From contig NZ_RBII01000002.1 of the NCBI RefSeq assembly GCF_003634015.1, positions 585,597-649,596 of the forward strand: a stretch of 64,000 bases of DNA, written 5' to 3'. This document shows positions 6,754-27,700 of the stretch, piece after piece. Each line of letters starts with the position of its first letter. Position 1 is the stretch's first letter. The notes below the pieces were generated by a model. It was not told the origin of the DNA. It saw nothing but the letters and a program-made list of their open reading frames with translations, and did no database searches. A program made the position numbers and the translations under genes. The stretch is from Litorimonas taeanensis (GTDB lineage: Bacteria > Pseudomonadota > Alphaproteobacteria > Caulobacterales > Maricaulaceae).

Positions 6754-7977
6754 ATGTCTAAGCCAAAAAAAGTCGTCCTCGCCTATTCTGGCGGTCTTGA
6801 TACATCCATCATCCTTAAATGGTTGCAAGAGGAAAAGGGCTATGAAGTCGTCACCTTCACGGCAGATCTCGGCCAAGGTGAAGAGCTAGAGCCAGCCCGC
6901 CGCAAGGCAGAAGCCCAAGGCGTAAAAGAAATCTTTATTGATGACTTGCGCGAAGAATTTGTGCGTGATTTTGTCTTTCCAATGATGCGCGCCAATGCGG
7001 TTTATGAGGGGCTATACCTGCTCGGCACATCCATCGCGCGGCCGCTTATCTCTAAGCGCCAAATCGAAATCGCGCATATGGTCGGCGCCGATGCCGTTTG
7101 TCACGGCGCAACAGGTAAAGGCAATGACCAGGTTCGCTTTGAACTGGGCTATTATGCTCTTGACCCAGACATCAAAGTTATTGCGCCGTGGAGAGAATGG
7201 GATCTGAATTCTCGGACCAAGCTCTTAGAATATGCGGAAAAGCACGGCATTGAAATTGCCAAAGACAAACGCGGTGAAGCACCGTTCTCTGTCGACGCCA
7301 ACCTCCTTCACACATCATCCGAGGGCAAAGCTTTGGAAGACCCGAATGAGGAAGCTCCAGAATTTGTCTATCAGCGCACAGTCTCGCCCGAAGAGGCTCC
7401 TGACAAGCCGACCTATATCACGATTGGTTTTGAAAAAGGCGATGCAGTCTCGATTGACGGTGAAGCGATGTCACCTGCCACGCTTCTAACGGCCTTGAAT
7501 AAACTTGGCGGCGACAACGGCATTGGCCGCCTTGACCTACTTGAAAACCGTTTCGTTGGCATGAAGTCACGCGGTATTTATGAAACACCTGGCGGAACCA
7601 TTTTGCTTATGGCGCATCGCGGCATTGAGCAAATCACTATGGATAAAGGTGCAGCGCATTTAAAAGATGAATTAATGCCAAAATATGCTGAGCTGATCTA
7701 CAATGGCTATTGGTTCTCACCAGAGCGCGAAATGCTTCAAGCGGCGATTGACGCCTCACAAGAATTGGTGACAGGAACTGTACGCCTTAAGCTTTACAAA
7801 GGCAGTGTCGACATTGTTGGCCGCGACAGCCCGTACTCACTTTACTCTCAAGAACACGTCACTTTCGAAGAAGACGATGTTTATGATCAAGCCGATGCTG
7901 GCGGGTTCATCAAAATCAATGCTCTGCGTTTACGCTTGTTAAAAGCCAGAGACAGAAAAGCTGGAAAAAACACTTAG
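6754..7977 (+). CDS. argG: Argininosuccinate synthase
   Basis: This 407-residue protein has the expected length for ArgG. The N-terminal P-loop is AYSGGLDTS (residues 10-18). Further family signatures are [13 protein letters not shown] and a citrulline/aspartate-binding stretch near NLLHTSSEG. It joins citrulline and aspartate with ATP to give argininosuccinate, the penultimate arginine-biosynthesis step. It is a single gene facing away from the MscS-ttcA unit, with a perfect hairpin downstream at 8020-8049. Confidence 0.97.
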
Positions 7978-12786: not shown

Positions 12787-14694
12787 ATGTCAAAAGTAAT
12801 TGGTATTGACTTGGGGACAACAAACTCTTGTGTTGCTGTCATGGATGGCGACAAGCCCCGAGTTATCGAAAACTCAGAAGGCCAACGCACAACCCCATCT
12901 GTTGTTGCCTTTACCGAAGGTGGAGAGCGTCTTATCGGTGTTCCAGCCCGCCGCCAAGCGGTCACAAACCCAGACCACACCTATTTCGCTGTGAAGCGCC
13001 TTATTGGTCGTAACATCAAAGATCCGGCCGTTAAAAAAGACGCCAAGCTCGTCCCTTATAAAATTGTCGAAGGCAAAGGCGGCGACGCTTATGTTCAAGG
13101 CCGCGATGATAACGCCTTAAGCCCGTCTGAAATCTCTGCCATGATCCTCACGAAAATGAAGGAAACTGCAGAAGATTATCTTGGCTCTGCTGTTTCGCAG
13201 GCTGTTATTACAGTTCCGGCTTACTTTAACGATGCTCAACGCCAAGCGACGAAAGACGCGGGTAAAATTGCAGGTCTTGAAGTTCTTCGTATCATTAACG
13301 AGCCAACAGCAGCGGCGCTGGCTTATGGTATGAACAAAGAAGACGGCAAAACTATTGCTGTTTACGATTTGGGCGGGGGTACATTTGATGTGTCAATCCT
13401 GGAAATCGGTGATGGCGTTTTCGAAGTGAAGGCGACGAATGGCGATACATTCCTCGGCGGTGAAGACTTTGACATGCACATTGTTGAGTACTTCAATTCA
13501 GAGTTCAAAAAAGAAAACGGCATTGATCTGAAATCAGACAAATTGGCTCTACAACGTCTTCGTGAAGAAGCTGAAAAAGCCAAAAAAGAATTGTCTTCTG
13601 CATCAACTTATGAAGTGAACCTTCCCTTTATTACGGCTGATGCATCTGGCCCGAAACATTTGAACATGAAGCTGACTCGCGCAAAACTCGAGACGCTTGT
13701 TGCGGACCTTATCAAGCGCACAATCGCGCCTTGTAAAAAAGCGCTTGCCGATGCTGGCCTTAAAGCTGGCGATATTGATGAAGTCGTTTTGGTTGGTGGT
13801 ATGACACGTATGCCAGCGGTTCAAAAAGCCGTAACAGACTTCTTTGGTAAAGAACCTCATAAAGGTGTGAACCCTGACGAAGTTGTTGCCATGGGCGCGG
13901 CTATCCAAGCAGGTGTATTGCAAGGTGATGTGAAAGACGTTCTTCTCTTGGACGTAACACCACTATCCCTAGGTATCGAAACCGAAGGTGGTGTCTTTAC
14001 ACGTATGATTGACCGTAACACGACAATCCCAACCAAAAAGTCTCAGGTTTACTCAACCGCCGCGGACAACCAGTCTGCTGTGACTATTCGGGTCTCTCAG
14101 GGTGAGCGCGAAATGGCCGCCGATAACAAATTGCTAGGTCAATTTGATTTGGTAGGTATTCCTCCTGCACCGCGCGGCATGCCTCAGATCGAAGTTACAT
14201 TTGATATTGATGCCAATGGTATTGTGAACGTGTCAGCCAAAGACAAAGCCACAGGCAAGGAACAGCAAATTCGTATCCAAGCCTCTGGTGGTTTGTCCGA
14301 CGAAGATATCGAGAGCATGATTAAAGATGCAGAAGCGAACGCGGATGAAGATAAAGCGCGCCGCGAACTCGCAGAAGCCAAGAATCAAGCGGAAGCTTTG
14401 ACACATAAAGCCGAAGCCGATTTGAAAGAGCATGGCGAGAGCTTGTCTGACGAAGACAAAGAGGCCATTGAAACTGCCATCACTGAACTCCGTGAAACAG
14501 CAGAGACAGACGACACGGCACTTATCACAGATAAGATTCAAGTCTTGACGGCCGCTGTCATGAAAATGGGCGAAGCAATTTATGCGAATGCTCAAGAAGA
14601 TGAAGGCCCAACGTCTGCGGCAGCAGATGCCGAAGATGACGATGATGATATCGTTGACGCAGAATTTGAAGACGTAGAAGACGACAAGTCTTAA
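12787..14694 (+). CDS. dnaK: Chaperone protein DnaK (Hsp70)
   Basis: This 635-residue Hsp70 begins with the phosphate-binding [17 protein letters not shown]. It has the second phosphate loop [14 protein letters not shown] and the adenosine motif [15 protein letters not shown], then the interdomain linker [16 protein letters not shown] and the substrate-binding domain. The tail is the usual acidic run ending in [13 protein letters not shown]. It folds proteins in an ATP cycle with DnaJ and GrpE. It is driven by the RpoH-type promoter at 12625-12652 and closed by a strong hairpin at 14714-14766. dnaJ is not adjacent: two unrelated genes intervene. Confidence 0.98.
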
Positions 14695-14713
14695 GCGCTT
14701 CGCATTCGTTAAC

Positions 14714-14766
14714 AATAAACCCCGAAGCAGGTTTGGTTTTTACCAACTCTGTTTTCGGGGTTTATT
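14714..14766 (+). terminator. Long hairpin terminator after dnaK
   Basis: A 13-bp perfect stem (14714-14726 with 14754-14766) encloses a 27-base interior that has its own small stem (TTGGT with ACCAA). It contains a CCCCG/CGGGG core and runs into T-rich sequence. Confidence 0.85.
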
Positions 14767-14838
14767 ATTTGCGGCAAGACACATAGTGTTGCCGCAACGA
14801 TATCTATTCCGTTCTGCCAACGACAAGAAAGGTCTCTC

Positions 14839-15462
14839 ATGTTAGACTTCGACCGCCTAGAAAACGGCACGGTGAAATCATTTCCTTTCACCTATCTGAT
14901 GGCCGAAGCCTGTTTATCCGAAGAGGACGGCGCAGCAGTCAGACAAGATTACCCGAACATTACTAAGACAGGCTATTTACCGCTTTCTAAATTAGACGTT
15001 CATGGAGCTTTCTCGCGGTTGATAGACGATTTACAATCACCGCGATTAGCTGAAATACTTTCAGATAAACTCGGCCTTGAACTTCGCGACAAGCCGCGCA
15101 TGATTACAGTACGCAAATTGTCTAAAGATAGTGATGGGCGTATTCACAATGACAGCCTTTCAAAAATTTGCACCTGCTTAATCTATCTAAACGAAACTTG
15201 GGATCCAGCCTATGGCGGGGCCATACGTGCCTTGAACGGCGAAAATGACATGGATGATTTTGCGGATGAGATGACCCCCTTAACAGGGAATATGTTTGCT
15301 TTCGCTAGATCAGAGACGAGCTGGCATGGCCATCCTCCTTTTGCGGGGGAGCGTTATGTCATTCAAACGACATTCCTAATCAATGAAGAAGCTTTAGCCC
15401 GCAAAGAAAACAGGGGCGGTATTCAGCTCTTGTTGAAAAAACTCAACCCCTTTGCACGATAA
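14839..15462 (+). CDS. 2OG-Fe(II) oxygenase superfamily protein
   Basis: This is a 207-residue protein with the double-stranded beta-helix oxygenase pattern. The His-x-Asp iron ligands are H103 and D105 (RIHND), the distal histidine is H163 or H165 (SWHGHPPF), and R172 is the 2-oxoglutarate-binding arginine (GERYVIQ). It resembles the prolyl-4-hydroxylase-like group that acts on proteins or sugars. It lies 25 bases before a glycosyltransferase gene that runs into dnaJ, so the three probably share a transcript. That context suggests a glycan or protein target, but this is inference only. Confidence 0.85.
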   Translation: MLDFDRLENGTVKSFPFTYLMAEACLSEEDGAAVRQDYPNITKTGYLPLSKLDVHGAFSRLIDDLQSPRLAEILSDKLGLELRDKPRMITVRKLSKDSDGRIHNDSLSKICTCLIYLNETWDPAYGGAIRALNGENDMDDFADEMTPLTGNMFAFARSETSWHGHPPFAGERYVIQTTFLINEEALARKENRGGIQLLLKKLNPFAR

Positions 15463-15486
15463 GCTGTTTTATAAATTTTTGCCGGC

Positions 15487-16629
15487 ATGATAATTCTATC
15501 GGTACAAACATTCCCGCCCGATGCAGGGGGAAAGCAAGTCTTGATGGAAGGGCTCGCAAAAGCCGCGGCTATTCATCATGATGTTTTGGTCTTATCCGAT
15601 AAGGCTCGCGAAGGCAGAGATAGCCAGAACCCCCATTACAATTTTACAGTGCAGCGCTTTGGTAGCTTTAAACCTTTGCGGCAAAGACAAAAAGCGAAAT
15701 TAATTTCGCAGCTTGTCGAACAAGAAAAAGTTTCGCATTTATTTTGCGATAGTTGGCGAAGCGCAGAGCACTTACCGCCAAACTTACCTTGCTCCGTAAC
15801 GATATATGCACACGGTAATGAATATCCGCTGGGCGGGCCTCAGAAAAACAAAACGAAGGCCAGACGTTTAATTAAAACTTTTGCTAAAATCGATCATATA
15901 ATTGCCGTCTCAAAACCGACCGCCAACAGAGTACGCCCTTATTTACCGCCCATCTCTGCCCCGAAATTGCATATAATCAATAACCCTGTTTCCCTGCCAA
16001 CACCGGCCACACAACAAAATGCGCATTTTGTAGAAACGCTTTGGCCACAAAAGAAAGAGCAGTCCACACGCATCCTCTCTCTTTGCCGTCTTATACCTTT
16101 GAAAGGGATAGATAGAGCCGTGCAGGCCGTTAAGGCGCTGAGAGATGAAGGTTATGCCCTGCAAATGATTATAGCAGGTGAAGGCGAAGATAAATTACGC
16201 CTAATGAAAAGTGTTGAGCAGGCAGGTTTAGGCCAATACATTCACTTCGTTGGTCATATAGCGGGACCCCAAAAAACAGCCTTGTTTGAAAGCGCCGATA
16301 TCTTTATTCAACCCGGCCGTAAAATTGGAGATTATGAAGAAGGGTTTGGCCTTACTTATCTTGAGGCCGGGCTTCATGGTCTTCCGAGTCTTTGCGGTCA
16401 AGCGGGCGGCGCGCCAGAAGCAGTCCTTCATGAAAAAACAGGTCTTGTCATCGATGGCATGAGTCAAATAAATGTCACAAATGGGCTTCGGCGCCTTATT
16501 GACGAAACCGAGCAGACTTCCCACATGGGCAAAGATGCGAAGGCCTTTGCGCAATCGCATTTATGGGACAAACAAATCGACCTGATTTTAAACCGGGTCA
16601 AAGAGGTTAGAGGGACGCGCTGTGTCTAA
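15487..16629 (+). CDS. Glycosyltransferase family 4 protein
   Basis: This is a 380-residue GT-B fold enzyme. It has the N-terminal [18 protein letters not shown] acceptor-side loop, a C-terminal domain starting [19 protein letters not shown], and the nucleotide-sugar EX7E-type motif [12 protein letters not shown]. It transfers a sugar from an activated donor; donor and acceptor are unknown. The start is an ATG at 15487, 24 bases after the oxygenase gene. The 3' end overlaps the dnaJ start by 8 bases, so it is translationally linked to dnaJ. Confidence 0.9.
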
Positions 16630-17776
16630 ACGTGATTATTACGAAATTCTGGGCGTTGCAAAAAATGCTGATGCTAAAGCCTTAAAGTCGGCTTTTCGTA
16701 AAAAGGCTATGGAATGCCACCCTGATCGTCACCCTGACGACCCAGACGCAGAGGCCCGCTTTAAAGAACTCAATGAAGCTTATGGTATTTTATCGGATGA
16801 GCAAAAACGTGCAGCCTATGACCGTATGGGCCACGCGGCCTTTGAACAAGGTGGCGGGATGGGCGGCGGCGGCTTCCAAGACTTCGGCGATATATTCAGT
16901 CAAATATTTGGCGGCGGTGGCGCTAGTGGCGGTTTTGCCGACATGTTTGGCGGCGGCGGACGTGGACGACAAACTGTTCAGCGCGGATCTGACCTACGAT
17001 ATGAAATGGAAATTACTCTAGAAGACGCGTTTCGTGGCAAGGATATTGATATCGAAGTCCCAATCGCGGAAGACTGCGATCGTTGTGATGGCCTAGGCGC
17101 GGAACCTGGTGCCTCCATTGAAACATGTTCGACCTGCGGCGGCGCAGGGCGTGTACGCACGCAGCAAGGGTTTTTCACAATGGAGCGGCCCTGTTCAACC
17201 TGTGGCGGCCAAGGTGAATATGTATCGGACCCTTGTCATCAATGCGATGGTCAAGGCCAAGTGCGGCAACAAACGGCGCTCGACGTCTCTATTCCTGCAG
17301 GTGTCGAAGACGGCACACGTATTCGCCTCTCTGGTCAAGGCGATGCGGCGCCTCGGCGCAGTGGCGGTGGACAACGAGGCGATCTCTATATTTTCGTCTC
17401 TGTCAAACCACACGGATTGTTTGAACGCGATGGGGCTAACCTGTTCTGCCGCACCCCTGTCCCCATGACGACAGCCGCGCTTGGCGGCGAAGTTGAAATC
17501 CCGACTATTGATGGCGGACGGTCCAAATTGAAAATTCCTGAGGGCAGCCAGAGCGGGAAGCGCATGCGCCTACGCGGTAAAGGCATGAGCGTTCTTCGTT
17601 CTGCTCAGCGCGGCGATATGTATGTAGAGCTCGGCGTGGAAACACCGTCCAAGCTCAATAAAAAGCAACGCGCCCTGCTCGAAGAATTTGCCCGTGAAGG
17701 CGGCGATGAAATCAGCCCCGAATCCAAAAACTTCTTTGATAAAGCAAAGGCGTTCTGGGAAGATTTGGTGGATTAA
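16622..17776 (+). CDS. dnaJ: Chaperone protein DnaJ
   Basis: This 384-residue type I Hsp40 has its J domain at residues 1-70 with HPD at 33-35, then a Gly/Phe-rich linker. Four CxxCxGxG zinc motifs follow ([32 protein letters not shown]), then the C-terminal substrate-binding domains. It delivers clients to DnaK and stimulates its ATPase. The start is a GTG at 16622 inside the end of the glycosyltransferase gene. No heat-shock promoter is visible directly before it, so expression may depend on read-through from the oxygenase gene or an internal promoter. Confidence 0.98.
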
Positions 17777-18219
17777 TGTCGCGCATAAGCGATTATTGTG
17801 ATGCTCATTCAAATCGAGCCCGATGGATTTTCGCTACTGCAGCAAGCCTAAGCGGAACGACAGCAGCCTGCCTGTTTTTTGCAGCGCAATATTTTGGCTC
17901 TATTTTTCTTCTAGTTCCAGAAGTCTTACTTTACGGTTTCTCAGCGGCTATAAGTGCTTTTTTTGCAGGAGCATTAGCATGGCCTCCGAAGCCATGTCGT
18001 TCTAAATGGCGTATGGCTTTAGCTGGAATTTTTACAGTCGCTTTAGCTTTTATTTTAATGGGGTTTATCTTGACGGGCATTATGGTCTTTGTAGATCATG
18101 ATGATATAAAACTCATTTTTATCATGCCGTTTTTCTTCCTCTTATTTGGAAGTATATACACTCTGGGTATTCCGTATCTAATTGGAATTCTTGTTTCACT
18201 TCTCTTTGCGAACAAATAA
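17776..18219 (+). CDS. Hypothetical membrane protein downstream of dnaJ
   Basis: This 147-residue protein has four predicted membrane helices (about residues 17-35, 40-66, 80-105 and 112-145). Its ATG overlaps the dnaJ stop codon (TAATG), which indicates translational coupling. I do not recognise a family. It lacks cysteine clusters or charged catalytic motifs. Confidence 0.7.
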   Translation: MSRISDYCDAHSNRARWIFATAASLSGTTAACLFFAAQYFGSIFLLVPEVLLYGFSAAISAFFAGALAWPPKPCRSKWRMALAGIFTVALAFILMGFILTGIMVFVDHDDIKLIFIMPFFFLLFGSIYTLGIPYLIGILVSLLFANK

Positions 18220-18230
18220 GTTTTATTTAA

Positions 18231-18683
18231 CTATTTCATTCGACGAAAGTCGCTCGCACCTGATGTGATGGAGTTCCATAAATCATCATCTTCTTTGTCG
18301 TCTGAGACATCTCGGGTAAGGTTCCACAACGTTCGAATATAAACGCCTTTATCATCTTCGCTCATTTGGCCTGTCCAGCTGGTGAGAGAGCCATAACCTT
18401 TGAAATTTACGGTAAAGGTGATTTGGTCACCCTCTACGAAACCTGTCAGTGGAAATTGTTTGGATTTATCGGGCTGCCCCAAAGCCGTTTGGTAGAAACC
18501 AGATAAAAGCCCGTCTTTTTCTGTAAAGGTTACAGCCGAGTTTCTATCATTCACCCATTGCCCAGAAAACAAACTTTCAGTCACCTCTAAAGTCTTGGCG
18601 CTTTGGGCCTCCCCTGCGGAACACGCTGACAGCGAAAGCGCCGCAGAAACGCCTATTGTCAAAAGTCTAAACACCCGCGACAC
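18231..18683 (-). CDS. Avidin/streptavidin-family lipoprotein
   Basis: This is a 150-residue protein with a signal peptide ending in the lipobox LSAC (C21), so a lipid-anchored exported protein. The mature part follows the streptavidin pattern over its whole length: SGQWVND, LLSGFYQTALG, TSWTGQ, IRTLWNLTR and LWNSITSG. Aligned by eye to streptavidin, biotin-contact positions are kept at N45 (N23), S49 (S27), Y64 (Y43), S99 (S88), T101 (T90), W103 (W92), W120 (W108) and W136 (W120). S45 is replaced by T66, W79 by F94, and D128 is shifted or replaced (S144-D145). It overlaps the end of the nhaC-like gene by 17 bases. Biotin binding is predicted, not shown. Confidence 0.85.
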   Translation of the reverse strand: MSRVFRLLTIGVSAALSLSACSAGEAQSAKTLEVTESLFSGQWVNDRNSAVTFTEKDGLLSGFYQTALGQPDKSKQFPLTGFVEGDQITFTVNFKGYGSLTSWTGQMSEDDKGVYIRTLWNLTRDVSDDKEDDDLWNSITSGASDFRRMK

Positions 18684-20142
18684 CTAAAATTAAATATAGC
18701 ATTGTCGTTATCGCGCCGCCCACCAGAGCATAGGGTAGCTGTGTGCGCACATGGTCAATATGGTCACTGGCTGTGGCCATAGACGTAATAATCGAAGTAT
18801 CCGAAGTGGGGCTACAATGATCACCAAAGACACCACCGCCCAGCGCCGCCGCAACTGCGAGGGTCACATTCGTGTCGAGGCCCTGCGCAAGCGGAACGGC
18901 AATCGCTATCATAATCGCAAACGTGCCCCAACTCGTACCCGTTGAAAAAGCGATAAAGGCGCTAATGAGGAATATTAGAGCCGGAACCAAAGCCGGTGAT
19001 AGATAAGGTTTTGCGCTTTCCGCAACAAAAACCCCCGTACCTAAAGCATCACAAAGATCGCCCAACGCAAAAGCAAACACCATCAATAAGGCGAGCGGCA
19101 CCATGCCAGACATGCCTTTTAAAATGATATCTATCATTTCTTTTATGCCCATTATGCCTTGAGCTTTGCTCATGACCATAGACATTAAAATCGCGCCGCT
19201 TACCGCATAGAGAACGGATTTGGAGCCAGACGCCCGATCAATAATGTCGAAAAAAGCATTCGAGGCGCCGCCCTCATTTGACCACCCTGTGTAAACAAGG
19301 AAAACAGGCATAAGCAAAACAAGCGTAACCAGTGGAATAATCATGTTCCGCGCGTGGTGCGCCGCGCCTGTTTTGGGTTCCATCATTGTAATATCGCCCG
19401 CGATCATGGGTATGGCTCCATCGCGTAGAACCTTGCCTTCAGTCTTAGCGCGGGTCTCAGCCTTTCGCATTTCGCCAAAATCTCTACCACTTAGAATGAC
19501 AAAGATCAGAATTGTGATGGCGAGCATGGGATAGAAATTAAAAGCCACAGCCCCTGCCAACATAGAAACCGGTTCAGCGATATTTTGTTCAAGCAGTAAG
19601 CCCATAATAAAAGCGCCCCATGCATTTAGCGGAATCAAGATACAGGCCGGCGCGCAAGTACTATCGGCAATATAGGCCAGCTTCTCGCGGGGTATATTGA
19701 GCTTATCCGTTATCGGGCGGTATAATGTTCCAACCGTGAGTGTCGAAATATTACTTTCCACAAAGATCAACATACCCGTCAGCACAGCAAGGAGTTCAAC
19801 CCGCCGCCTTTGTCCTTTCATATCAGCTGTAGCCGCTTTGCTTTGCAGCCAGTTGACAACGCGTGTGACGAAACCTTCGACCCCACCAGCCCGCTGGATA
19901 AGCGCAATCAGTGCCCCAATCAAAAGCGTAAAGATAATAATCTCTGTATTGTAGTTGCTCTCGAAGACGCGAACAAAACCGCCTAATGTATCCAACAGGC
20001 CTTGCAGTAAATTACCGCCCGACAGGATAACAAATCCGGACGCGATACCAATCAAGAGCGAGAGAAAGACCTGCCGCGTTGCTAGGGCTAGTATAATCGC
20101 CAAGAGCGGGGGGAGAAGAGAAAGTAAGCCGTAATTTTCCAT
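18667..20142 (-). CDS. NhaC-family Na+/H+ antiporter
   Basis: This 491-residue transporter has about 11-12 hydrophobic helices. Conserved segments include PLLAIILALATRQVFLSLLIG at the N-terminus (start of helix 1), FVESNISTLTVGTLYRP, and the C-terminal FSTGTSWGTFAIM and GGGVFGDHCSPTSDTSI motifs, which are characteristic of NhaC-type antiporters. It probably exchanges Na+ or an organic cation or acid for protons. It is followed by the avidin-like gene, which starts within its last codons. Substrate is not certain, since the family also contains amino-acid/organic-acid exchangers. Confidence 0.88.
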   Translation of the reverse strand: MENYGLLSLLPPLLAIILALATRQVFLSLLIGIASGFVILSGGNLLQGLLDTLGGFVRVFESNYNTEIIIFTLLIGALIALIQRAGGVEGFVTRVVNWLQSKAATADMKGQRRRVELLAVLTGMLIFVESNISTLTVGTLYRPITDKLNIPREKLAYIADSTCAPACILIPLNAWGAFIMGLLLEQNIAEPVSMLAGAVAFNFYPMLAITILIFVILSGRDFGEMRKAETRAKTEGKVLRDGAIPMIAGDITMMEPKTGAAHHARNMIIPLVTLVLLMPVFLVYTGWSNEGGASNAFFDIIDRASGSKSVLYAVSGAILMSMVMSKAQGIMGIKEMIDIILKGMSGMVPLALLMVFAFALGDLCDALGTGVFVAESAKPYLSPALVPALIFLISAFIAFSTGTSWGTFAIMIAIAVPLAQGLDTNVTLAVAAALGGGVFGDHCSPTSDTSIITSMATASDHIDHVRTQLPYALVGGAITTMLYLILGVAGV

Positions 20143-20197
20143 GTCTTTGGGTTAAGGTAAAATTACGGCTTTGCAAAGTGAAGAAGAAAAGTGAAAA

Positions 20198-21376
20198 CTA
20201 CCCTTCGATTGTAAAGATCAGTCCCGCATGCGCTTGTAAGCGGTCTATCAAAGCATCACCCATAACAGGCGCTGTTGTAAAGACGCCTCCCCCTGTTTTA
20301 GATTGGGGGACATCTTTGACCAAAGCCATTGCACTCTCCGCAATCATTTTCGAGGTTGAACCATAGCCAGGGTCTTTGTCGCCTTTAACACTCGCCATAA
20401 CTTTTTGACCACCTGCTGTATCGCCAATAAAGAGTACGTCATAAAATCCGTTATCACGTTCTTCTTTTGACGGACCTTCACCCGGTTTAGGTGGGTTTTC
20501 GCCGAAGGGTTTTTTATTTCCCGCAATTCCTTTGGCAATAGCTTCGCCTTGTTCCCCTGGGCCCGTAAACATCATTTCATCATAAATAAAATCTTCGCCA
20601 TAGGCGTGACCTAGAAGCGCATTTGAACGGTGAACATTCTTTGTATTGATAGAGGCCATAATAAAAGGCGCAGACCATGAATCTAAGTCAACTTCATGAA
20701 TAGGTTTGCGTCCATGGGGTTGGGTTGGCCCGCTGAAATTAGGCACCAATGAAAAAGGATCTTTCAACCAATCCAAAATTTCTGGTTGTTTTTGTGCCCG
20801 CACCATTGTGCCGCCTAGGCTTGCGGCCGTTCCGCCAGAGAAAGTGCCTTTCATCTTACGCACACGACCTCGAATTTTTGGTAATGCCTTGCCTGTTTCC
20901 GCCTTGGCATGCCGCTGTAGAAAGTAAACACCCAAATCAAAAGGTATTGAGTCAAAGCCACAAGACAAGACAATACGGGCACCACTTTCTTTTGCCGCGG
21001 CGTCATAGTCCTCAATGATATCGTGCATCCATGCTGGTTCTCCGCACAGATCAACATAATCGGTTCCCGATTCGACGCAGGCTTTTACCAAGGGTTCGCC
21101 ATAATGCTGATAAGGTCCAACGGTTGTAATGATGGCTTTCGTTCGCTTGGCCATATCCGATAACGTGTCAGGCGCATCAGCATTTGCGACGATTAGGTCC
21201 ACATTATCCGAGACACCCATTTCAGCCCGCACGGCCTTAAGCTTGTCCATAGAGCGCCCTGCCATTGCCCATTTTAAATTTGTGTCCCCATATTCAGACT
21301 GCAAATATTCGGCCACAAGGCGACCTGTAAACCCAGTGCCACCATAAACAATAATATCAAATTCGCGATCAGACAT
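20198..21376 (-). CDS. Saccharopine dehydrogenase-like NAD(P)-binding protein (trans-acting enoyl reductase type)
   Basis: This is a 392-residue protein with an N-terminal Rossmann motif IVYGGTGFTGRLVAEYL. Typical features of the saccharopine dehydrogenase NADP-binding superfamily follow: TTVGPYQHYGEPLVKACVE, DYVDLCGEPAW and CGFDSIPFDLGVY. It is closest in pattern to the trans-acting enoyl reductases and eukaryotic SCCPDH group rather than to lysine-pathway enzymes. It lies in a minus-strand run with the beta-propeller gene upstream (31 bases) and nhaC downstream (55 bases). The real substrate is unknown. Confidence 0.87.
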   Translation of the reverse strand: MSDREFDIIVYGGTGFTGRLVAEYLQSEYGDTNLKWAMAGRSMDKLKAVRAEMGVSDNVDLIVANADAPDTLSDMAKRTKAIITTVGPYQHYGEPLVKACVESGTDYVDLCGEPAWMHDIIEDYDAAAKESGARIVLSCGFDSIPFDLGVYFLQRHAKAETGKALPKIRGRVRKMKGTFSGGTAASLGGTMVRAQKQPEILDWLKDPFSLVPNFSGPTQPHGRKPIHEVDLDSWSAPFIMASINTKNVHRSNALLGHAYGEDFIYDEMMFTGPGEQGEAIAKGIAGNKKPFGENPPKPGEGPSKEERDNGFYDVLFIGDTAGGQKVMASVKGDKDPGYGSTSKMIAESAMALVKDVPQSKTGGGVFTTAPVMGDALIDRLQAHAGLIFTIEG

Positions 21377-21407
21377 AATACTCTCCCATTTTTCGTTACC
21401 TTATCCT

Positions 21408-22490
21408 TTATGGATAGGGTCGGTATCCCAAAGTTTTTGAAGCCAAGCTAGACACATATAATCTATCCCCGACAACGGCGTTAGAAACAACGAGCGCCCC
21501 TGTCGTCGCTGGGTAAACACCATCTGCATCTTGCCACGTCCTCAAAACCTCTCCGCTTGAGTCGATTTGCAGAACGAATCCATAATCTTGGGCTTTGGGT
21601 TTCATAAATTCTGGTAAACGCCAGATAATTTCTCTCAGCTTTGGTTTATTCGCGAGGCTATCAAGAGCTTTGGCTCTTTTCGAAACAAGGCCGATGAAAT
21701 AAGTCCCGTTTGGGCCGCGGTTAATATTATCGGGAAAGCCAGGAAGGTTATCAATAATCACCTTTCGCTCGCCCTTAGGTGAAATTTCCAAGACCCGGTA
21801 CTTGCCTGTTTCAACAACCCAAACAGACGTTCCATTTGGGGCCCTCGCAACACCATTTGAAAAGGCCAAGTTATCAGCCACAATATGGGTTGTTTTATCA
21901 CTTGGGTTATATGCTAAAAGCCGGCCCGTTTCTCCATGCTCCATAATTTCTAATAATGAAGCCGCCAAGGTCGATCCAATAGCTCTTGCGCCGAATTTTG
22001 TGCTCGCATCTGAAAAATAGATGAGGCCATCAGACGTAATATCCAGATCATCTGCATAGAGGATAGGCGTTCCTGCGACCATATTCGATAAGACCTCTAG
22101 GGTCCCCGCCCCATCAACCGACACCAAACCAACATACGGGTCGGCAATTATCAGCTTCCCATGCATTGATTCCATGCCAAGAGGACTGCCGCCCGTATTG
22201 GCAAAACGTATAAATTTATCAGTAAGGGGATCAAATTTCAAAATCCAACCTGTTTGCGAGGATAGATAGAGTTCACCTTCCATTTCAACAATATCTTCAG
22301 GTCCATGAATGCCCTCTGGCAGCGGAGCTTTGGCTAAATTTTCTAAGCCTGTATTCGGAGAAAACGCGCCGATATAACCTTTATGTATGGGGGCCTGCCA
22401 TGAACGTGGCGAGATAGGGACAGGAAAAAAAAGCAAATATAAGATAATCCCTATAAAAAAGACCACTAATAACTTTAAAGCTGTTTTCAT
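21408..22490 (-). CDS. Strictosidine synthase-like / SMP-30 family beta-propeller protein
   Basis: This is a 360-residue protein with an N-terminal membrane anchor or signal (about residues 4-24). A six-bladed propeller follows: the blade motifs ITSDGLIYFSDAS, NGVARAPNG and GFPDNINRGPNGTYFIG are those of the strictosidine synthase-like/gluconolactonase superfamily. Members hydrolyse lactones or esters, or have no known activity. The plant alkaloid reaction is not implied. It is the first gene of a minus-strand run and is divergent from the ast genes, with about 120 bases between the two starts. Confidence 0.85.
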   Translation of the reverse strand: MKTALKLLVVFFIGIILYLLFFPVPISPRSWQAPIHKGYIGAFSPNTGLENLAKAPLPEGIHGPEDIVEMEGELYLSSQTGWILKFDPLTDKFIRFANTGGSPLGMESMHGKLIIADPYVGLVSVDGAGTLEVLSNMVAGTPILYADDLDITSDGLIYFSDASTKFGARAIGSTLAASLLEIMEHGETGRLLAYNPSDKTTHIVADNLAFSNGVARAPNGTSVWVVETGKYRVLEISPKGERKVIIDNLPGFPDNINRGPNGTYFIGLVSKRAKALDSLANKPKLREIIWRLPEFMKPKAQDYGFVLQIDSSGEVLRTWQDADGVYPATTGALVVSNAVVGDRLYVSSLASKTLGYRPYP

Positions 22491-22613
22491 ATGTCTCTCC
22501 CCTCGCCACGCTATAACAGGCCATGGGGTGAGACAACTCTGTCTTATTGGTTTACCCGACGCGCTAATTCAGATAGGGAAACGCCATCTTTATGGAGAGG
22601 GTTATCTAACGGT

Positions 22614-23627
22614 TTGACAAAGCATAACGATATATTCCGAGTGGCGTGTCTCGATGATATTGACGCGATTTTGGGCTTTACAGCCAACGGAGTGCAAGGA
22701 CTAACCAATGTCCCGCGGACGCGAGAACGCGTGCAAGAACAGCTTCAAGAAACGATTGATACTTTAGCCGGAAAACCCGGAGCAAATCGCATAATATTTG
22801 TGGTTGAACGTGACAGTAAGGTTTTAGGCATTTCAGGCATCATTGTAAAAGTGGGTGTCGAATCTCCCTTCTATAATTTTAAACGTAATCACCACTCAGG
22901 CCGCTCGGCCAATCCCGTCCTCGCCATTGACTATGATACGCTGCAAATGACAACGGATTTTAATGGCTATACAGAAGTAGCATCTTTATTCATGGGGCCA
23001 GAAGGGCGCGGCACGGGATTAGCACGACTTTTATCCATGGGCCGTTTTGGATATATTCGAAATAATCGCAATCAGTTTTCAGATGGATTAATGGCTGAAA
23101 TTCTCGGTTGGACTGATGAAAATGGCGTATCGCCTTTTTGGAAACATCTGGCGTCCCGCTTTATCGATATGCCTTTTGACAATGCTGATAAACTGAGCAC
23201 AATTGATAAACGCTTTATCGTCGACCTTTTACCGGGTATCCCGATTATGCTGAATTTATTACCTGATATTGTTACGGAATGTACTGGTCGCCCACATGAT
23301 AGTTCGGCGCGCGCCATGAGAATGCTTCAATCTGTCGGGTTTCAAGTCACGGATATGTGCGACGTTTTTGACGGCGGCCCAGCTGTGAAATGTCCGACAG
23401 ACAGCACTTGGATTGCACGGTCCACACGGCGAGTTAAAAGCCTAGACGCCCCCGCAGGTGCCGAAATTTGCATGCATTTTTCTGGTGAAGGCGCTCATTT
23501 CCGTGCCGCTCTTGGCCCGGCTATTCCGCAAGAAGGTCGCGCCGACGCCCATGCTGCCTCTATCGTTAAGACCTCAGCAGAAGCACCTGTCTATATCGCA
23601 CAAACCCGAGAGCCCGCACCGATTTAG
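22614..23627 (+). CDS. astA: Arginine N-succinyltransferase
   Basis: This protein is about 337 residues from a TTG at 22614. It matches AstA from its N-terminus (IFRVACLDDIDAILGF) through LTNVPRTRERV, SPFYNFKRN, EVASLFMGPEGRGTGLARLLS, AEILGWTDENGVSPFWKHL and the C-terminal DMCDVFDGGPAV. It transfers succinyl from succinyl-CoA to the alpha-amino group of arginine, the first step of arginine succinyltransferase catabolism. The frame is open to an ATG at 22491, but the added residues have no counterpart in AstA and abut the divergent gene. A GGAGAGG lies 14 bases before the TTG, so the exact start is uncertain. Confidence 0.93.
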   Translation: MTKHNDIFRVACLDDIDAILGFTANGVQGLTNVPRTRERVQEQLQETIDTLAGKPGANRIIFVVERDSKVLGISGIIVKVGVESPFYNFKRNHHSGRSANPVLAIDYDTLQMTTDFNGYTEVASLFMGPEGRGTGLARLLSMGRFGYIRNNRNQFSDGLMAEILGWTDENGVSPFWKHLASRFIDMPFDNADKLSTIDKRFIVDLLPGIPIMLNLLPDIVTECTGRPHDSSARAMRMLQSVGFQVTDMCDVFDGGPAVKCPTDSTWIARSTRRVKSLDAPAGAEICMHFSGEGAHFRAALGPAIPQEGRADAHAASIVKTSAEAPVYIAQTREPAPI

Positions 23628-23671
23628 AATCGGCCGCATTATTACGGCTAATTTTTACGCACGAGAAACGT

Positions 23672-25003
23672 ATGAGTGTTGAATTAAACATAGATGGTCT
23701 TGTCGGCCCAACGCATAATTATGCTGGTCTAAGCTTTGGCAATATTGCCTCTTCGGGTAATAAAGGCGCAATCTCAAACCCAAAGGCCGCCGCCCTTCAG
23801 GGCCTCCAAAAGATGCGGACGCTCGTCAATATGGGTTTACCGCAGGCTGTCATGCCGCCACATGCGCGGCCACTTACGTATTATTTACGGGGCCTTGGAT
23901 TTAACGGGACGGATAGCGCCGTTCATGAAAGCGCCTGGAAAGCAAACCCTGCTTTGGTTGCGAACCTTATGAGCGCATCCCCTATGTGGACAGCCAACGC
24001 CGCCACAGTGTCCCCATCAATTGATACAGCGGATGGTAAGGTCCACCTGACAGCCGCGAACCTCGTGGCCATGCCGCACCGTAGTATCGAGGCGCCGCAA
24101 ACAGAACGGCTGTTACAGGCCATATTGCCAAAGGCCGTCATTCACCCTGCCCTGCCGTCAAATACAGTTTTCGGCGATGAGGGCGCCGCAAATCATAATC
24201 GTATGAGCCAAAGCCATGGTGATAAAGGGTTAGAGATTTTCGTCTATGGGCGTGAGGCTTTGTCTGACGAGCCATCAACAAAGTTTCCCGGACGCCAAAC
24301 CTTAGAAGCCAGTAAAGCCGTAGGGCGCCTGCATGGTCTGGATGAAGCCGCAACGCTTTACCTCCGTCAGTCGGCAAAAGCCATTGATGCAGGGGCTTTT
24401 CACAATGATGTCGTCTGCGTCACAAATGGAACCGTCATGTTCTTCCATAAAGACGCCTTTGATGATGTTGCGGCTATGCAGAATGTCGTAAGAGAGAAAG
24501 CTAAACCCCTAGGGTTTGAGCCTGAGTTTTTAATGGCAGATATTCCTCTTGAAGATACCATTCAGTCCTATCTATTTAACTCGCAGCTTTTATCTCTACC
24601 GAATGGGAAAATGGGGCTTATTCTGCCCAAAAATGTAGAGAACACACCCTCTGCGAAAGCGTTCGTCGATCACTGTATCGCGGGAAACAACCCGGTTTCT
24701 GAGGCACATTATTTAGACTTGAAGCAGTCCATGCAAAATGGCGGCGGCCCAGCCTGTCTCCGCCTGAGAGTCCCGCTCACAGATGAAGAGTTGAAACAGG
24801 TTCACTCCCCTATGCTTATGGACGAAGCGAAACTGCAATCCCTAGATGAATGGGTGAATAAATATTATCGCGAGGCGCTCTCTCGCGATGACCTAGGCGA
24901 CCCTGCACTGATGATAGAATGCCGAACAGCCTTGGATGATTTGACTCAGCGCTTATCTCTAGGGTCTATATATGATTTCCAAATGGAAGGAGGCGCTCAA
25001 TGA
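23672..25003 (+). CDS. astB: N-succinylarginine dihydrolase
   Basis: This is a 443-residue enzyme of the amidinotransferase fold. The AstB signatures are visible: NIDGLVGPTHNYAGLS at the N-terminus, NTVFGDEGAANHNR, FHNDVVCVTNG and the C-terminal NGGGPACLRLRVPL with the catalytic cysteine. It converts N2-succinylarginine to N2-succinylornithine, CO2 and ammonia. It sits 44 bases after astA and overlaps the following M20 hydrolase gene by 4 bases, so the ast genes form an operon. Confidence 0.97.
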   Translation: MSVELNIDGLVGPTHNYAGLSFGNIASSGNKGAISNPKAAALQGLQKMRTLVNMGLPQAVMPPHARPLTYYLRGLGFNGTDSAVHESAWKANPALVANLMSASPMWTANAATVSPSIDTADGKVHLTAANLVAMPHRSIEAPQTERLLQAILPKAVIHPALPSNTVFGDEGAANHNRMSQSHGDKGLEIFVYGREALSDEPSTKFPGRQTLEASKAVGRLHGLDEAATLYLRQSAKAIDAGAFHNDVVCVTNGTVMFFHKDAFDDVAAMQNVVREKAKPLGFEPEFLMADIPLEDTIQSYLFNSQLLSLPNGKMGLILPKNVENTPSAKAFVDHCIAGNNPVSEAHYLDLKQSMQNGGGPACLRLRVPLTDEELKQVHSPMLMDEAKLQSLDEWVNKYYREALSRDDLGDPALMIECRTALDDLTQRLSLGSIYDFQMEGGAQ

Positions 25004-26277
25004 ACGCCGTTACAGACTTAATTTCCCTTTCTGATCTAAGCCCAGAAGACAAAGCAGCCCTAGACGCTGTAAAGGCCCGGCAAGAATTTATGCTAGAACG
25101 TGTTCTTGAGTGGGCCTCAATTAATACTGGAAGCTGGAATGCTGAGGGCTTGAATACACTGGCTCCTTTAATTCAATCTGCGATATCTTTGGATCTTGAG
25201 GCCAATGTCGAACTGCTAACAACTGAGCCAATTGAAGAAATTAATAACAAAGGCACGAAAGATAGATTTCAAAGCGGCCCTGTCATTCGCGCCCAAGCCC
25301 GGCTTGACGCCCCATTACGCATTGTTTTGACGGGGCATTACGATACGGTTTTTCCAGCGGGGACTTTTACTGAAATTAAAGATCTCGGTAATGGGACCTT
25401 AAACGGTCCGGGTCTGGCCGATATGAAGGGCGGTATTACCGTTATGATTGATGCGCTTCGAGCCTTTGAAGCTGGGCCGCTTAAAAACCAAATTGGGTAT
25501 GAAATTATTCTTACCCCTGATGAAGAAACAGGGAACTTTGCGTCTTCGCCATTCCTACATGCCGCCGCGAAAAACGCCCATATCGGCCTTACATTTGAAC
25601 CGGCTATGGATTGCGGTAGCCTCGCGGGCGCGCGTAAAGGTTCGGGCATTTGGGATATTGTCTTCCATGGCAAAGCCTCTCATGCTGGCCGCGCACCCGA
25701 AGCGGGGCGTTCCGCTATCAGCGCCGCAGCCGATATGGCCCTACGCGTAGAAGCTCTGAACGGTGAACGTGAAGGTGTGACATTTAATGTTGGTTCCATT
25801 GATGGAGGGAATGCCGTCAATATTGTGCCAGAACTAGCGATTTTGCGTATGGGCTCTCGCGCCCCCACGCCCGAAGATGCAAGATGGGCAGAACAAGCTG
25901 TCAAAGCCGCCTTAGCAGATGTCTTACAACGCGACGGCATTTCAGCCCATAGTCATGGTGGATTTTACCGTCCTCCTAAACCTCGTAATGCCGCTCAGGA
26001 TCAATTGCTTTCAGATGTGAAAGCCACCGGTAAAGCTCTTGGCCTTGATTTAGTTTTCAAAGATACGGGCGGGGTTTGTGAAGGTAATAATGTCTTCGCT
26101 GCAGGCACCCCTAATGTTGACACGCTGGGCGTACGCGGCGGGCGCATCCATTCTTCGGATGAATTCATGGTTGTTGAGAGTCTAGCCGAACGCGCGGGCC
26201 TTGCCGCCTTGCTTTTGAACCGTATTGCCGATGGCCGCATAGACGCACCTGCAATTAAAAAATTAATGGGTCAATAA
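25000..26277 (+). CDS. M20-family hydrolase in the ast operon (candidate succinylglutamate desuccinylase replacement)
   Basis: This is a 425-residue zinc peptidase/deacylase of the ArgE/DapE/CPG2 group. Metal-binding motifs are visible: TGHYDTVFPAG (His-x-Asp), GLADMKGG (bridging Asp), PDEETGN (Glu-Glu pair) and a C-terminal IHSSDEFM with the last histidine. The dimerisation-domain histidine is near GKASHAGRAPE. It begins inside the last codons of astB and is followed one base later by astD. The classical AstE is a different (M14-like) fold and is not seen here, so this enzyme may split succinylglutamate. That role is inference from position. Confidence 0.9.
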   Translation: MNAVTDLISLSDLSPEDKAALDAVKARQEFMLERVLEWASINTGSWNAEGLNTLAPLIQSAISLDLEANVELLTTEPIEEINNKGTKDRFQSGPVIRAQARLDAPLRIVLTGHYDTVFPAGTFTEIKDLGNGTLNGPGLADMKGGITVMIDALRAFEAGPLKNQIGYEIILTPDEETGNFASSPFLHAAAKNAHIGLTFEPAMDCGSLAGARKGSGIWDIVFHGKASHAGRAPEAGRSAISAAADMALRVEALNGEREGVTFNVGSIDGGNAVNIVPELAILRMGSRAPTPEDARWAEQAVKAALADVLQRDGISAHSHGGFYRPPKPRNAAQDQLLSDVKATGKALGLDLVFKDTGGVCEGNNVFAAGTPNVDTLGVRGGRIHSSDEFMVVESLAERAGLAALLLNRIADGRIDAPAIKKLMGQ

Positions 26278-26278
26278 A

Positions 26279-27700
26279 ATGTCAGATACATTTATTAGTG
26301 GACAATGGACATCTGGCGAGGGGGGTGAGTTTGAGAGCTATTGCCCCGCGACTGGCGAAAGTGTTTGGCAGGGGAAGGATTCAACCGCCGAGCAAGTAAA
26401 CGCTGCTATTGCCAATGCCCGTCAAGCCCAACCCAAATGGGCCGCTACGCCGCTGTCTGAGCGTATAGAGATTTTACAGCGATATGCTGAAAAGCTAACA
26501 GAGAAAAAAGAGGCTATTGCTTATGCAATTTCCCGCGACATGGGCAAACCTCTTTGGGAAGCCCGTACAGAAGTCGGAGCTATGGCCGGCAAGATTGGTC
26601 ATTCTATTCGCGCCCAAGCAGAGCGGGCGGGCGATAAAGATGAGGGCGCCCTAACATTGACTCATCGCCCACATGGCGTGATGGCTGTATTTGGGCCATT
26701 TAATTTTCCGGGGCACTTACCCAATGGGCATATCGTCCCTGCGCTTTTAGCAGGAAATAGCTGCGTCTTTAAACCTTCTGAGCTTACGCCCAGCGTGGCC
26801 ACATTAATCGTGCAAGCCTTCGAAGAGGCAGGCTTACCCCCGGGCTGTTTAAACGTCGTGCAAGGTGGACGCGAGACAGGGCAAGCGCTTTTAAATGGAG
26901 ACATTAATGGTCTTTTATTTACCGGTTCAGCCAATACTGGCACAGCCTTTCACAAGCACTTTGCAGGCCGCCCAAATGTTATTCTTGCCCTAGAAATGGG
27001 CGGAAACAACCCACTAATCGCTTGGGATGGCGATAGCCAAGCCGTCGCCGACACAGCCTTTTTCAGCGCCTATATTTCAGCAGGTCAAAGATGCACCTGT
27101 GCGCGGCGGCTCATTTTACCCGAAGGCGCGTTTGGGGATGATGTCTTATCATTGATTCAAGCCCGTATCGGACAAGTCACTGTCGGTAAATGGGATGAAG
27201 ACGTCTTCATGGGCCCTGTTGTCTCCGAGCAATCTGCTCAAAATGGGTTGAAATTTGAACAAGCCTTAACCGAAGCGGGGGGTAGGCCTATTGTGCCGTT
27301 ACAAGTTGAGGGCGCCTTTGTTCACCCAGGCCTGATTGAAATGAGCGGCGCCTCTGATGTTGAAGACGAAGAATTATTCGGCCCTCTGTTACAAGTGTAC
27401 CGCGTTAAAACTTTTGACGAAGCTATCGCTAAAGCCAATGATACGCGCTTTGGTTTGTCTGGCGGATTGCTGAGCCAAGATAAAAACCTTTGGCATCGTG
27501 CAGGTCTTGAGATGCGGGCGGGCATTTTAAACTGGAATAAGCCGACAACCGGCGCGGCCTCGTCACTACCATTTGGCGGCCCTGGCTTATCAGGCAATTT
27601 CCGCCCAGGCGCCTATTATGCGGCAGATTATTGTGCGTGGCCACAGGCTGGGCAAGTCGCCGAATCCGTAGCTAGTCCCGTTATGGTGGGCATGAAATAA
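26279..27700 (+). CDS. astD: Succinylglutamic semialdehyde dehydrogenase
   Basis: This is a 473-residue aldehyde dehydrogenase. Features are the N-terminal FISGQWTSGEG, the cofactor-binding GPFNFPGHLPNGHIVPALLAG (segment of that motif near residue 140), the catalytic glutamate in LALEMGGNNPL and the catalytic cysteine in SAGQRCTCARR. The AstD-type sequence FNFPGHLPNGHI supports this assignment over generic family members. It oxidises N-succinylglutamate semialdehyde to N-succinylglutamate with NAD. The aminotransferase AstC that precedes it in the pathway is not encoded in this window. Confidence 0.95.
   Translation: MSDTFISGQWTSGEGGEFESYCPATGESVWQGKDSTAEQVNAAIANARQAQPKWAATPLSERIEILQRYAEKLTEKKEAIAYAISRDMGKPLWEARTEVGAMAGKIGHSIRAQAERAGDKDEGALTLTHRPHGVMAVFGPFNFPGHLPNGHIVPALLAGNSCVFKPSELTPSVATLIVQAFEEAGLPPGCLNVVQGGRETGQALLNGDINGLLFTGSANTGTAFHKHFAGRPNVILALEMGGNNPLIAWDGDSQAVADTAFFSAYISAGQRCTCARRLILPEGAFGDDVLSLIQARIGQVTVGKWDEDVFMGPVVSEQSAQNGLKFEQALTEAGGRPIVPLQVEGAFVHPGLIEMSGASDVEDEELFGPLLQVYRVKTFDEAIAKANDTRFGLSGGLLSQDKNLWHRAGLEMRAGILNWNKPTTGAASSLPFGGPGLSGNFRPGAYYAADYCAWPQAGQVAESVASPVMVGMK

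Follow-up and report, generated by a model that had tools for sequence, protein, structure and literature searches.

We report that a 64,000-nucleotide stretch of Litorimonas taeanensis DNA (the whole stretch analysed, hereafter the window) encodes a true member of the avidin family with a predicted eight-stranded avidin barrel. Among related genomes this avidin usually has a lipobox, and its gene forms a conserved pair with, and overlaps, that of a transporter of the NhaC family. We tentatively propose, with a little less than even confidence, that the two proteins form a coupled unit capturing, conserving, and perhaps importing the vitamin. The avidin would be exported, usually lipid-anchored, and would act in the cell envelope as a binder of biotin or desthiobiotin, probably a weaker and more reversible one than streptavidin, because the position of streptavidin W79 is occupied by F and that of D128 by S; it would be translated together with the NhaC-family transporter, act with it as one unit, and serve a host unable to make biotin from the start. 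Such a unit is suggested by the invariance of 10 of 12 biotin-contact positions, a fixed start placement in 24 of 28 loci, the presence of avidin in 25 of the 30 genomes carrying this NhaC type, and a host in which neither bioD nor BioY was detected. Avidin homology and fold, contact residues, the overlapping gene pair, and the lack of detected bioA, bioD, and BioY are computed results; lipidation, ligand, affinity, membrane side, and the role of NhaC as importer are what we infer.

The role of bacterial avidins is described as still largely open in the part of PMC8033661 consulted, and one mutant study, likewise consulted in part, points to biotin conservation (PMC8914248). We found no earlier description of a lipoprotein or antiporter-linked avidin among titles and abstract beginnings in the open literature, and the main text of PMC8033661 contains no word beginning lipo, Hellea, Robiginitomaculum, or antiporter. 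Members of PF01382 (chicken avidin, xenavidin, streptavidin, bradavidin) resemble the window avidin in profile, fold, and 10 of 12 contact residues, while F94, S144, the lipobox, the overlap with a transporter gene, and a streptavidin score of 30.5 against 300 bits set it apart. As a works-like analogy only, with no claim of family relationship, BtuG of Bacteroides is a precedent for the proposed unit: this lipoprotein, a very tight binder of vitamin B12, is encoded beside its transporter, though it differs in its unrelated beta-propeller fold, its vitamin, and its outer-membrane TonB-dependent partner (PMC6143338, consulted in part). The BioY/BioMNY importer would fill the same role with different protein families, and the window's genome has no BioY match. 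If true, uptake by an avidin-NhaC unit would assign bacterial avidins a role in nutrition, with a dedicated transporter, and would supply a missing desthiobiotin carrier; if this NhaC type moves biotin, it would be a candidate carrier for biotin-requiring relatives without BioY. Since the pair is present in cultured Hellea balneolensis (L002) and Litorimonas cladophorae (L008), the role of the avidin is directly testable.

The ORF list and translation placed the avidin frame at 18231-18683 on the minus strand (150 aa), where the ORF tool's start is a GTG at 18683 (Table 1). A second in-frame GTG at 18674 would yield 147 aa and is the likelier start, because the starts of homologues are positioned alike with respect to the NhaC stop. 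The initial annotation had placed an ATG inside the last NhaC codons; the placement holds, while the codon is GTG, ATG being absent at both 18674 and 18683 in the window sequence. An HMM search proposed there as a check returned Pfam Avidin (PF01382) over residues 39-146 at E 7.8e-19 and 68.6 bits (curated cut-off 24), while the equivalog cut-off for streptavidin proper (NF047623) was missed (30.5 bits vs 300). An AlphaFold2 model built from 20 homologues had eight strands and a mean pLDDT of 83.7 (82-98 when averaged over ten-residue blocks starting at residue 31), and all 50 matches listed by Foldseek against the PDB were avidin-family chains (best 1avd, E 1.7e-8). The avidin match and the eight-stranded barrel, whose absence had been named in advance as refuting the assignment, were thus both found, and whether pocket residues face inside was judged by alignment to avidin rather than on the model. 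Beyond the avidin, a 147-aa hydrophobic protein at 17776-18219 on the plus strand overlaps the dnaJ stop, terminates 11 nt away from that of avidin, and had no Pfam or NCBIfam match.

Table 1. Coordinates of the avidin-NhaC pair in the window and of carboxylesterase genes preceding avidin at other loci
Feature	Position	Strand	Basis
Avidin-family gene, likely extent	18231..18674	-	ORF list; Pfam Avidin E 7.8e-19; start by homologue comparison
Avidin barrel domain, residues 39-146	18246..18569	-	Pfam; AlphaFold2 model with eight strands; Foldseek vs PDB
Lipobox LSAC, residues 18-21 of the 150-aa ORF, preceded by signal peptide	18621..18632	-	Translation; pattern match
8-nt overlap GTGTTTAG, avidin start codon inside NhaC-family gene end	18667..18674	-	Sequence; 18 distinct avidin loci alike
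Transporter of the NhaC family (PF03553; 491 aa), leading gene of the pair	18667..20142	-	Pfam E 2.7e-48; below cut-offs of the NCBIfam models matched
Carboxylesterase (PF00135)	L013:4685-5980
Carboxylesterase (PF00135)	L017:1403-2713
Carboxylesterase (PF00135)	L018:4718-5983
Carboxylesterase (PF00135)	L022:7-552
Carboxylesterase (PF00135)	L035:3-1382
Carboxylesterase (PF00135)	L040 from 105

For the binding pocket, we mapped 12 positions, which we take to be the biotin contacts, through an alignment to chicken avidin, and the window avidin has the canonical residue at 10 of them, the exceptions being F94 and S144. Among 20 aligned homologues, 10 of the 12 contact positions were invariant, compared with 32 of the 110 core positions (p 6e-5, hypergeometric), and with W, F, Y, G, and P set aside 5 of 7 contacts vs 14 of 82 core positions (p 0.001), both p values being those of a single clade whose rows are not independent. 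The eight retained contacts listed in the initial annotation (N45, S49, Y64, S99, T101, W103, W120, W136) are present as stated and invariant in these homologues, and of the three pocket changes it claimed, F94 and the D128 equivalent (S144) stand, while T66 aligns with a T of chicken avidin and is therefore no pocket change. The W79/W70 position is F in all 20 aligned homologues; the D128/N118 position, N in avidin and D in streptavidin, is S in 14 and A in six. Among avidins further removed, by eye, several retain a Trp near position 94 and one (L029) has F. In streptavidin mutants, such pocket changes weaken biotin binding instead of abolishing it, and F94 and S144 would probably act likewise. 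These departures from the canonical pocket count against the proposed unit and could mean that the barrel has shifted to another ligand, with NhaC as the carrier of that ligand, as would be in keeping with a lipoprotein carboxylesterase before avidin in six loci and with the varied substrates of the NhaC family. We regard such a shift as very unlikely, given that 10 of 12 contacts are unchanged and invariant, including the ureido-binding N45 and S49, plus Y64.

The pairing of the two genes recurs well beyond the window. A scan of GTDB species genomes yielded 24 loci with relatives of the window avidin, from Hellea, Litorimonas, Robiginitomaculum, and their relatives (Hellea and Robiginitomaculum being placed by NCBI taxonomy in the Robiginitomaculaceae, Maricaulales), and 20 of these had NhaC upstream in the same orientation, while 19 had a convergent dnaJ on the opposite side. 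NhaC was lacking in four loci: three end at a contig edge, and that of R. antarcticum (L009) is truly without NhaC there. With further genomes added, 29 distinct loci had both genes, one of them masked at the junction, and in 24 of the 28 readable loci a start codon was placed within the NhaC end, 8 nt in, so that the recurrence the initial annotation had asked about is borne out. This start was avidin's own, at exactly 8 nt, in 18 loci and that of an intervening gene in six (L010, L013, L017, L018, L020, L040), while neither was found at this place in four (L006, L007, L019, L021). The avidin start is ATG or GTG depending on the locus and the terminal NhaC residues also vary, so the start codon inside the NhaC end seems to be conserved in itself. 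At the NhaC-avidin junction no hairpin stood out (z 0.39), and no Rfam RNA reached gathering scores in window positions 14000-24000. Searches upstream of NhaC gave no consistent BioR-type site (best matches with 2-3 mismatches at varying places), which counts against the proposed unit. The lipoprotein-like genes between NhaC and avidin at L010:5314-5952 and L020:5282-5998 had no Pfam or NCBIfam match.

A different account, which we consider possible if somewhat doubtful, is that avidin works on its own, storing biotin in the envelope or serving as a bait that denies biotin to competitors or grazers, with NhaC an ordinary cation or amino-acid carrier and the overlap a compact operon kept by descent. 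Rhizavidin, which acts in biotin conservation with no NhaC partner, offers a precedent: Rhizobium etli mutated in rhizavidin is poor at conserving biotin and grows worse over subcultures, a defect that biotin corrects (PMC8914248, consulted in part). This capture role is equally a precedent for the avidin part of the coupled unit. The window avidin is like rhizavidin in belonging to a biotin-requiring alphaproteobacterium, with a proposed role in capture or conservation, while R. etli has known biotin transport genes, rhizavidin is of another subfamily, and the part of that report consulted mentions no NhaC link (PMC8914248). A store of this kind would also suit the essentially single origin of the pair on our tree and the occurrence of avidin behind other genes, such as an rbfA-like gene in R. 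antarcticum (L081). Against mere descent, the exact 8-nt arrangement persists though NhaC ends differ in residues, and by clustering no gene family upstream of NhaC was common to more than three of the 24 loci (the window and L025 have three neighbours in common). For the coupled unit, in turn, it is unfavourable that avidin stands without this NhaC beside it in R. antarcticum (L009, L081) and G339, and that some 93 kb separate the pair in G330, while in G372 its members are on different contigs. In the R. antarcticum-like locus (L081:6873-7723), avidin (7301-7723) faces dnaJ and overlaps the end of the rbfA-like gene, named by eye, by 4 nt.

A possible third operon member is a carboxylesterase (PF00135), found directly before avidin in six loci (Table 1). 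It follows NhaC or starts at the NhaC end in five of the six, the known cases, overlaps avidin by 4 nt in L013, L017, L018, and L022, and has a lipobox-like start by eye in L017, L018, and L040. The esterase may serve to release bound biotin. An extended form of the proposal, in which a membrane-tethered avidin feeds an NhaC-family importer with both biotin and desthiobiotin and some lineages add a lipoprotein esterase freeing biotin, appears to us unlikely.

Regarding export, the initial annotation had described a lipobox with its cysteine at C21. By pattern, a signal peptide ending in a lipobox Cys, as in bacterial lipoproteins, is present in the window avidin (LSAC, residues 18-21), a supportive result only, as lipobox calls here are pattern matches. 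The feature proved not to be fixed: among 34 distinct homologues, 23 matched the pattern (e.g., LSAC, LSSC, ISAC, and LGAC), three had a Cys that missed it, and eight had no Cys there. These 34 were what remained of 55 loci after setting aside one cut before the motif and 13 repeats (leaving 41 distinct), then two masked or cut and five of other avidin types; the lipobox and overlap counts cover loci from 30 of the 40 avidin genomes, plus the window. A lipid anchor thus appears usual in this avidin clade and absent from some members. The protein might instead be a non-lipoprotein, cut by signal peptidase I at AxA sites after the Cys and soluble in the periplasm or secreted, a reading which concerns location only and is compatible with envelope capture. 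AQA- or ADA-like sites do often follow the Cys (by eye) and 8 of 34 homologues lack the Cys, but with lipobox patterns in 23 of 34 we judge it quite unlikely. Lipoproteins without an Asp after the Cys are expected in the outer membrane, and an avidin without it would be away from an inner-membrane NhaC, a further point against the coupled unit. By eye, no lipobox was seen in the order's other avidin types (L026, L030, L036, L037) or in class members L150-L154. The former four, with ordinary-looking signal peptides and no NhaC match in the stretch fetched, are unlike the window avidin. More than one lineage of avidins is thus present in the order.

The partner gene was called an NhaC-type antiporter in the initial annotation, and the family assignment is sound (Na_H_antiporter, PF03553, E 2.7e-48, 165 bits vs curated cut-off 23), while the protein falls under the cut-offs of all three NCBIfam models matched, including that of NhaC proper (TIGR00931, equivalog cut-off, 50.3 bits vs 370). 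No PDB sequence relatives were found at E 0.1. Its structure model (mean pLDDT 75.6) had 22 structure matches at E 0.001 or better with TM-scores of just 0.41-0.58, placing it by Pfam family and weak fold likeness near the ion-transporter superfamily (MleN; INDY; MtrF/YdaH, AbgT-type; TRAP; known from titles only). The second match, again by title only, was PDB 9a59, an MleN-MetQ model, and no paper on MleN with MetQ was found in the literature. Biotin is a candidate substrate of this transporter on the basis of gene coupling. The window protein has weak similarity to ArcD, and at 22491-27700 on the plus strand arginine succinyltransferase-pathway genes (AstA, AstB, a hydrolase, AstD) lie near the genes that precede NhaC and run divergently from them; these findings could equally point to an amino-acid substrate, as expected if avidin were a store beside an ordinary carrier. 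More distant type 2 NhaC relatives (~39-44% identity) were considered as biotin carriers and rejected (75 of 398 genomes, 37 with vs 38 without bioB); by eye, some of them have a peptidase-like or amidohydrolase-like neighbour.

Among 398 genomes from the order, avidin was found in 40, and 105 carried NhaC relatives at E 1e-60. The NhaC type of the window (type 1, 49% identity or more) was present in 30 of these 105, 25 of which also carry avidin, while no avidin was found in G242, G262, G267, G324, and G327, NhaC itself being cut in G262 and G324; these five genomes speak against the coupled unit. Conversely, 15 of the 40 avidin genomes lacked this NhaC type, many of them having other avidin types, and in the class any avidin was found in six of 385 genomes, the window's own included. 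For an rpoB tree we sampled 80 genomes, leaving out one outgroup and 15 family members that have bioB but no avidin; rpoB matched in 69, and 66 entered the tree after three split copies were left out. On this tree the NhaC type needs four changes and lies within one fully supported group of 27 genomes, which makes the NhaC-avidin pair a single old association that has in places been lost or split up. Independent pairs on the tree gave no support for an association of NhaC with avidin (3 pairs, too few for significance), and such scarcity of independent changes weighs against the coupled unit. We also dropped the idea that avidin tracks bioB loss: bioB above cut-off was missing in 25 of 35 avidin vs 2 of 20 avidin-free genomes (55 family genomes tested), but nine independent pairs on the rpoB tree gave 0.7 the same way, 2.3 the opposite, and 6.0 no difference (median p 0.625). 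Among the genomes of the order without this NhaC type, bioB was missing in 160 of 368.

Finally, the host itself appears short of biotin genes. In the window's genome, bioB (E 2.2e-120) and BirA are present, while BioY gave no match, bioD was not detected, and bioA was not detected above cut-off (best match 239 bits vs 405). The family sample was similar, with bioD in 4 of 50 genomes, bioA above cut-off in 3 of 47 (a match in G372 falling just under the cut-off at a contig edge), and BioY in 1 of 55. These bacteria are thus predicted to require biotin (or desthiobiotin, if bioB is retained). Most avidin-free relatives tested also lack bioA, bioD, and BioY, so the need for biotin alone does not explain the pair. 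According to the part of PMC9561691 consulted, desthiobiotin can be recovered by a large majority of Caulobacterales, and its entry into marine cells is stated there as unknown. In one genome (G019, contig 3), bioB occurs only in pieces, one of them with an internal stop, as if biotin synthase had recently been lost.
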